Shown here: in pieces, positions 17,193 through 35,089 of the stretch | Layout: every line of letters starts with the position of its first letter | Position numbering within the stretch: position 1 is the stretch's first letter | From: Bacteroidales bacterium | GTDB lineage: Bacteria; Bacteroidota; Bacteroidia; Bacteroidales; UBA932 | Direction: 5' to 3' | Assembly: GCA_017461285.1 (NCBI GenBank) | Contig: JAFTYS010000078.1 | Coordinates: 1-39,541 of the forward strand | DNA: 39,541 nt | Program-made: the position numbers and the translations under genes | The notes under the pieces: model-generated | The model's input: only the letters and a program-made list of their open reading frames with translations | What the model was told of the DNA's origin: nothing | Database searches by the model: none

Positions 17193-17313
17193 TGTGTCTA
17201 TCCTGTCATATTAGTAACAGGATGGACAAGGGATGCTTTGTAATACTTTGATTATCTGATGTTTATAAGATATGCAACAGCTATCATGCCGACGCATGGA
17301 CAGGATAGACACA
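17193..17313. repeat. Two-hairpin intergenic repeat element, copy A
   Basis: The element is bounded by a perfect 15-base inverted repeat, TGTGTCTATCCTGTC (17193-17207) and its complement at 17299-17313. Inside are two hairpin units. Hairpin 1: TGTCTATCCTG (17195-17205) with CAGGATGGACA (17218-17228), one G-U pair, 12-base loop. Hairpin 2 is decayed on its left side: CTATCATG (17281-17288) against the intact right arm (17301-17313), again with a 12-base loop starting CCGA. The 48-base spacer shares the words TTGAnTATCTGnTG and AAGAT with copy B at 34795-34914. The flanks of the two copies are unrelated, so the unit has defined ends. No open reading frame. Confidence 0.75.
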
Positions 17314-34734: not shown

Positions 34735-34794
34735 TGGATCGCCGGCCTTGTGCCGGAGCCAGTTTGTATTTCCAATCCACAAAACCCATCCAAT

Positions 34795-34914
34795 TGTGTC
34801 TGTCCTGTTCATTTTGTGTCAGGATAGACACAAGGTGTTTTTTAACCTGTTGAATATCTGGTGCTTGCAAAGATGGGCGTGTCTATCCTGCCGATTCCTG
34901 AACAGGATAGACAC
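34795..34914. repeat. Two-hairpin intergenic repeat element, copy B
   Basis: The better-preserved copy. Hairpin 1: TGTGTCTGTCCTG (34795-34807) and CAGGATAGACACA (34820-34832), one G-U pair, 12-base loop. Hairpin 2: GTGTCTATCCTG (34879-34890) and CAGGATAGACAC (34903-34914), perfect, 12-base loop starting CCGA. The 46-base spacer aligns with that of copy A. The outer ends also match each other over about 16 bases (GTGTCTnTCCTGTTCA), so the whole unit has terminal inverted repeats. It is non-coding and lies between the PagL-like gene and fumarase. Confidence 0.8.
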
Positions 34915-34937
34915 CTTCGAGCCTTATTTTCAGGCTT

Positions 34938-34973: not shown

Positions 34974-34985
34974 CATGATTTAGAT

Positions 34986-35089
34986 TTCTTTCGCTGACGC
35001 TCAAGCGGCTTCGTCGATGGCCCGACTCCCTGCGGTCGCTCGAGATGATACGCTTGTCATCCTGAGGAGCGTAGCGACGTGAGGATCTT
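34986..35089. repeat. TCATCCTGAG-type palindromic intergenic repeat
   Basis: Contains TGTCATCCTGAGGAGCG (35056-35072) followed by TAGCGACGTGAGGATCTTT, the familiar form of a repeat found in many bacterial intergenic regions. GTCGCT (35035-35040) with ATGA (35045-35048) can pair with TCAT (35057-35060) and AGCGAC (35073-35078). The left part (TCGCTGACGCTCAAGCGGC) is also rich in short inverted words. It occupies the probable fumarase leader. Confidence 0.6.

Follow-up and report, generated by a model that had tools for sequence, protein, structure and literature searches.

A dispersed pair of helically phased palindromes in Bacteroidales, with a REP-type transposase as its likely mover

What kind of element is the pair of palindromes that occurs twice, in both cases between genes, on contig JAFTYS010000078.1 of a Bacteroidales bacterium (assembly GCA_017461285.1; all 39,541 nucleotides are here termed the window)? 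Taken as a whole, the observations are probably best explained by a non-autonomous doublet, akin to a REPIN, that belongs to the system of a RAYT (REP-associated tyrosine transposase), would be cut and rejoined as hairpins, and whose two palindromes would be held paired on the duplex. A REP-type transposase encoded amid the same palindromes in a relative, the metagenome-assembled genome RGIG1649, is the likely mover of the window element. Elements of this kind are already known; new here are the 12-base loops, the lack of a GTAG foot and the helical phasing of the two palindromes.

Both window copies are 119 bases long and consist of a 12-12-12 palindrome (arm, loop, arm), a 47-base spacer and a second 36-base palindrome, with an offset of 83 bases between palindrome starts. 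Copy 1 (34796..34914, forward strand, from pattern and shuffle analysis) comprises GTGTCTGTCCTG-12-CAGGATAGACAC (34796..34831), the spacer (34832..34878) and GTGTCTATCCTG-12-CAGGATAGACAC (34879..34914). Copy 2 (17194..17312, forward strand) comprises GTGTCTATCCTG-12-CAGGATGGACAA (17194..17229), the spacer and ACAGCTATCATG-12-CAGGATAGACAC (17277..17312). The preliminary description had recognised a repeated two-hairpin element with 12-base loops, the second of which opens with CCGA; all four loops do have 12 bases, and the second loop opens with CCGA in both copies. The hairpin-spacer-hairpin design it gave also stands, with a spacer of 47 bases in both copies and not 46-48, as does its 12-mer arm, except that in copy 2 the second hairpin has a degenerate inner left arm. 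Its view that the flanks of the copies are unrelated is borne out, because the two align with each other only over the element itself and 3-4 bases on its left side. The arm repetition is not due to chance: at ≤2 mismatches the 12-mer occurs 10 times in the window, where shuffled sequence averages 3.16 occurrences and none of 100 shuffles reaches 10. In a reading of feet and loops, palindromes mostly begin GTGT, with GTGG in 2 of 24, both of them right palindromes. The outer arms of the doublet pair with each other, a pairing used in the minimum-energy RNA fold, and the folds of the two copies are stable (z -5.5 and -4.2).

A relaxed palindrome pattern scan of genome contigs, with one genome per species, gave 18 loci, among which several sites with 12-base loops occur in one genome only, that of the goat-cecum Bacteroidales RGIG1649 (G001, 2.2 Mb; L007, L008 and L014), the closest relative found. 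The locus of copy 2 has an orthologue there (L008/L019), 87% identical over 4.5 kb and with the element in place. RGIG1649 carries three full dispersed doublets (C23, C3 and C66), and its palindromes total 12 at ≤3 mismatches, i.e. six in the doublets, five on C52 and C12, and a solo one on C4. A search of relatives, as proposed at the outset, thus yielded further copies in RGIG1649, and none in the six other genomes searched with the same pattern and mismatch limit; BLAST with the doublet matched 1/61 genomes, which was RGIG1649 itself, one further genome giving short matches only. Three doublets in 2.2 Mb do not sustain the earlier expectation of many copies per genome. Alignments of copy 1 with the RGIG1649 copies extend 14-15 bases beyond the element on the left and 0-10 on the right and cover ~119-145 bases, the longest alignable part (34780..34925, forward strand; pairwise local alignment) being that shared with C23. 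The five dispersed doublets of this window-type family share 92% identity in their arms and 64% in their spacers, and each of the five spacers is 47 bases long.

The association with a transposase is apparent in RGIG1649, where the same palindrome, with an 83-bp period, forms tandem blocks on both sides of a divergent RAYT gene. One palindrome family thus flanks the transposase gene and is dispersed elsewhere (three doublets and one solo palindrome on other contigs), as in RAYT/REP systems. The protein is ~290 residues long, which includes an additional helical domain at the C-terminus; it has the motifs NHFH and YILRNH, and its best structural match is 4er8, the Escherichia coli RAYT bound to REP. 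The HUH motif, the Tyr and the Asn four residues after it are invariant in 101 homologues; the Tyr motif of the lineage reads Y-x-x-x-N, with H, P, S, C or another residue next, the class 2 signature Y---NP not being retained. The combination of HUH, a single catalytic Tyr and this Asn is found in the RGIG1649 RAYT and its homologues, and not in the window. In P0001, residues 248-311 form a well-predicted C-terminal helical domain outside the part that aligns to the 165-residue 4er8 chain.

Several further features were observed at these loci. A perfect 20-bp tandem repeat (4.1 copies; L007 271-351) adjoins the palindrome array, and downstream of the RAYT the palindrome doublets are separated by a second tandem repeat (L046 11732-12050), with a period of ~82 or 153. 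An open reading frame adjoining the RAYT (L046:13055-13477, reverse strand) encodes an HRDC domain (E 1.3e-18) and has a weak likeness to the tail of the Rpn recombination-promoting nuclease. Upstream of the RAYT at L046, L056, L109 and L110 is an AT-rich stem, AAATTTGTTTGATTTTT ... AAAAATCAAACAAATTT, with variants. A CRISPR array was considered and ruled out, the spacers being homologous to one another and the neighbours being the RAYT and the HRDC protein.

The association of a RAYT with its own palindromes extends to a wider family. RAYT relatives are present in 43/81 genomes (RGIG1649 and its relatives; 1-11 per genome), and a 12-member RAYT profile matches 272/398 genomes drawn from the family. 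Divergent RAYT-like genes occur severalfold in many of these genomes, an unusual expansion that reaches 11 in the first search; in the profile search, ~5 candidates per genome were scored. When RAYT loci were scored for at least five sites of one palindrome arm within 600-base flanks, 58/111 loci of a first set reached this number, vs 2/550 shuffles and 2/131 control stretches (overlapping tiles), as did 48/82 loci of a second set. The arm sequence differs from one RAYT lineage to another. Of four further RAYT families tested, two have dispersed doublets. For a second RAYT of RGIG1649, seven doublets lie on six other contigs, with an offset of 51 in six and 50 in one; the matching stretch is 84-91 bases in five of the six places, the sixth (136 bases) holding three palindromes, and arms are 89% and spacers 50% identical, with a spacer length of 21 in six doublets and 20 in one. 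For the G065 RAYT, BLAST found doublets on three other contigs, spanning 88-89 bases, the offset being 52 in the two read base by base. Spacing is thus retained in these comparisons even where the spacer sequence has diverged.

The spacing tends towards whole turns of the DNA helix. For arm sites on the same strand, the offsets form clusters at 42, 50-54, 62-64, 72-75 and 83-85. In the first set, where a both-strand modal offset was obtained at 43/111 loci, the values outside the main class (n=15 after clustering at 70% identity) accord with a period of 10.5 at phase 0 (V-test, p=4.8e-5), 10.5 being the best among periods scanned from 8 to 14. The phasing hypothesis came from this set; the test was then fixed and run on 82 fresh loci, 45 of which gave offsets, namely 51-53 (20), 63 (2), 73-76 (21), 84 (1) and 46 (1), with p=2.5e-6 for non-main values per locus (n=25) and p=4.5e-5 after clustering at 70% (n=19). 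In the pooled set (89/193 loci, with the 83 of L046 added by hand), offsets lie near 42, 52, 63, 73-75 and 84 bp, and 84/89 deviate by no more than 2 bp from some multiple of 10.5 bp; for the non-main class this is so for 38/41, vs 38% expected, with p=1.6e-4 at 50% clustering (n=16) and p=6e-4 at 35-45% (n=14).

On a quick tree of the 89 RAYTs, the offset class changes 14 times (minimum 5; shuffled mean 35.7), none of 200 shuffles being as low; the offset thus goes with the lineage of the transposase, although repeated changes have taken place. Within several sister pairs the shift is of about one turn (75/64, 84/73 and 52/42), and within one pair it is of half a turn (51/46). The window-type family falls in a clade with offsets of 83, 85 and 85 (L046, L056 and L109), and L110, 38% identical, also has an offset of 85. 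Helical phasing of the offset was unexpected and tends to suggest paired recognition on duplex DNA. Spacing that tends to step by one helix turn along a transposase tree may be a cue to such recognition, where the published chemistry is that of single-stranded DNA, and one Bacteroidales family makes available a large natural set of RAYTs paired with palindromes of differing sequence.

Homology suggests that the RAYT, which belongs to the HUH/Tyr nucleases with the IS200 fold, would recognise the palindrome in its hairpin form and would cut and rejoin at the hairpin foot in the manner of E. coli TnpA-REP, with the doublet copied or moved during replication. Less certainly, the phasing suggests that, before or during cutting, a RAYT multimer or an accessory protein may hold the two palindromes on one face of the duplex, which would account for an offset near a whole number of turns (eight in the window element). 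The more general proposal, that this RAYT family reads a helically phased duplex doublet ahead of single-stranded hairpin chemistry, with the number of turns (4, 5, 6, 7 or 8) heritable in each lineage, is put forward tentatively, at slightly less than even chance, an estimate that takes into account the periods scanned in the second set and the stricter tally of the first.

The doublet structure, the RAYT association in the relative, the doublet dispersal and the phased offset are evident from the sequence; the following points weigh against the proposal as such. The window's own RAYT is unseen, the host data consisting of the contig only. At the copy 1 locus, the orthologue in RGIG1649 has flanking genes 93 and 97% identical, with 1.9 kb of other sequence between them that is devoid of the element; judged by sequence, this is a presence/absence difference and not a clean empty site. 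The unit moved may exceed the doublet, since copy 2, C23 and C66 have common sequence up to 49 bases left and 15-43 bases right of the element, and C3 shares ~20 bases of flank on either side. Fewer than five arm sites are present at 53/111 and 34/82 RAYT loci in the two sets, and the doublets of the G010 and G034 RAYT families were not found dispersed in the searches made. As to phasing, both-strand spacing was obtained at only 88/193 loci, and five of the 89 pooled values (46, 50, 50, 76 and 89) are more than 2 bp off a multiple. The stricter first tally (38 loci) has modal values that include 79 and 104, and a best free-phase period of 10.9. In the second set, clustering at 50% leaves n=4 independent values (p=0.058), and periods of 10.7 and 12.4-12.5 beat 10.5 for non-main values, because one group with an offset of 75 bp dominates the set.

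Some of these points favour a different origin, in which the pairs are relics of tandem arrays at RAYT genes that were spread by ordinary duplication and recombination, without transposition by the RAYT, the offset being the array period. Arrays of 83-bp period are indeed present at the RAYT locus, some RAYT families have no dispersed doublets and some copies have flanking sequence in common. However, the dispersed matches span about one doublet (84-91 bases in five of the six places of the second RGIG1649 family, 88-89 in the three G065 places and ~119-145 for copy 1), and an inherited period leaves unexplained why different families sit near multiples of 10.5; such an origin is considered rather improbable. 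An alternative that is somewhat less remote, if still unlikely, is that the phasing reflects a host or regulatory protein that binds duplex DNA, e.g. one that represses the RAYT gene, or a relative of HU or IHF in kind, with the doublet being mainly an operator and not a substrate for transposition. The helical phasing itself is consistent with an operator, and in 72/100 loci (those with at least five sites and a downstream site) no more than 60 bases separate the RAYT stop from the first arm site downstream. By contrast, the window copies adjoin unrelated genes, copy 1 lying beside PagL-like and fumarase genes and copy 2 beside a tRNA and a gene for a 2-hydroxyacid dehydrogenase, and the arm sequences differ between RAYT lineages.

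A transcription terminator or structured RNA, the latter also raised at the outset, is very improbable. The predicted fold is stable and there is one terminator-like match within copy 1, but the terminator-like count is close to the shuffle mean (1 vs 0.4), the six-T run that follows the first stem of copy 1 is missing from the other seven doublets compared, and an Rfam scan of the window gave three tRNAs only, with no match above the gathering score at the element. The preferred reading, a RAYT-dependent doublet, agrees with the MITE/REP-like mobile element that was among the options in the preliminary description, given the RAYT among the same palindromes in RGIG1649 and the dispersal of the doublets; the helically phased spacing means that its protein-binding array may also be partly right. 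Its statement that the element is of no described family is right only in part, RAYT/REP systems, TIRtrons and a Bacteroidetes subclass of TnpA-REP being in print.

As in the E. coli REP/REPtron TnpA-REP system, an HUH/Tyr gene is flanked by palindromes that are also dispersed, each transposase having its own palindrome family (PMC6006769). Canonical REPs have a 5' GT[AG]G foot and loops of 2-5 bases in short hairpins (PMC6006769), a combination that the element does not show, its loops being of 12 bases and its foot GTGT or variable. Pseudomonas REPINs are dispersed as doublets with inverted outer arms (PMC3116915); here the doublet matches the dispersed unit in most places, some copies sharing more flank, and its outer arms are inverted repeats, but each half is in itself palindromic (36 bp, near-perfect and long-looped), so that orientation is poorly defined. 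The offset is 83 bp here, the REPIN offsets being 71 and 110 bp, and there are three doublets in 2.2 Mb vs hundreds of REPINs in P. fluorescens SBW25 (PMC3116915).

In Bacteroidetes, TnpA-REP subclass 2.6, to which Bertels group 5 belongs, has 'atypical secondary structures' flanking the gene, no GT[AG]G and copies elsewhere (PMC6006769), and the host phylum, flanking structures and copies elsewhere are alike here. Its motifs, NH[LIV]H and YIH[QN]NP, compare, by description only, with NHFH and YILRNH; the ~290-residue length with a C-terminal helical domain differs from the subclass as described, and phased pairs are absent from the portion of its description available. TIRtrons (TIRYT) likewise combine a RAYT-like gene with non-GTAG flanking repeats, some of which are double palindromic, in dimers or clusters, the dimers having 20-100 bp spacers (PMC3733652); unlike them, as far as the available description goes, many flanking blocks here are doublets with a period tied to the helix turn. 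In the literature searched, which was mostly outside subscription journals, helically phased REP pairs were not found described, nor was any paper found on RAYTs of Bacteroidales beyond PMC6006769, PMC3733652, PMC3116915 and PMC8266576, the last of which, in its abstract, describes REP mobilisation as still poorly understood. Following copy 1 in the window, positions 34984-35048 match C10 (83% over 65 bases) and C46 (94% over 34) of RGIG1649, and form another dispersed repeat.
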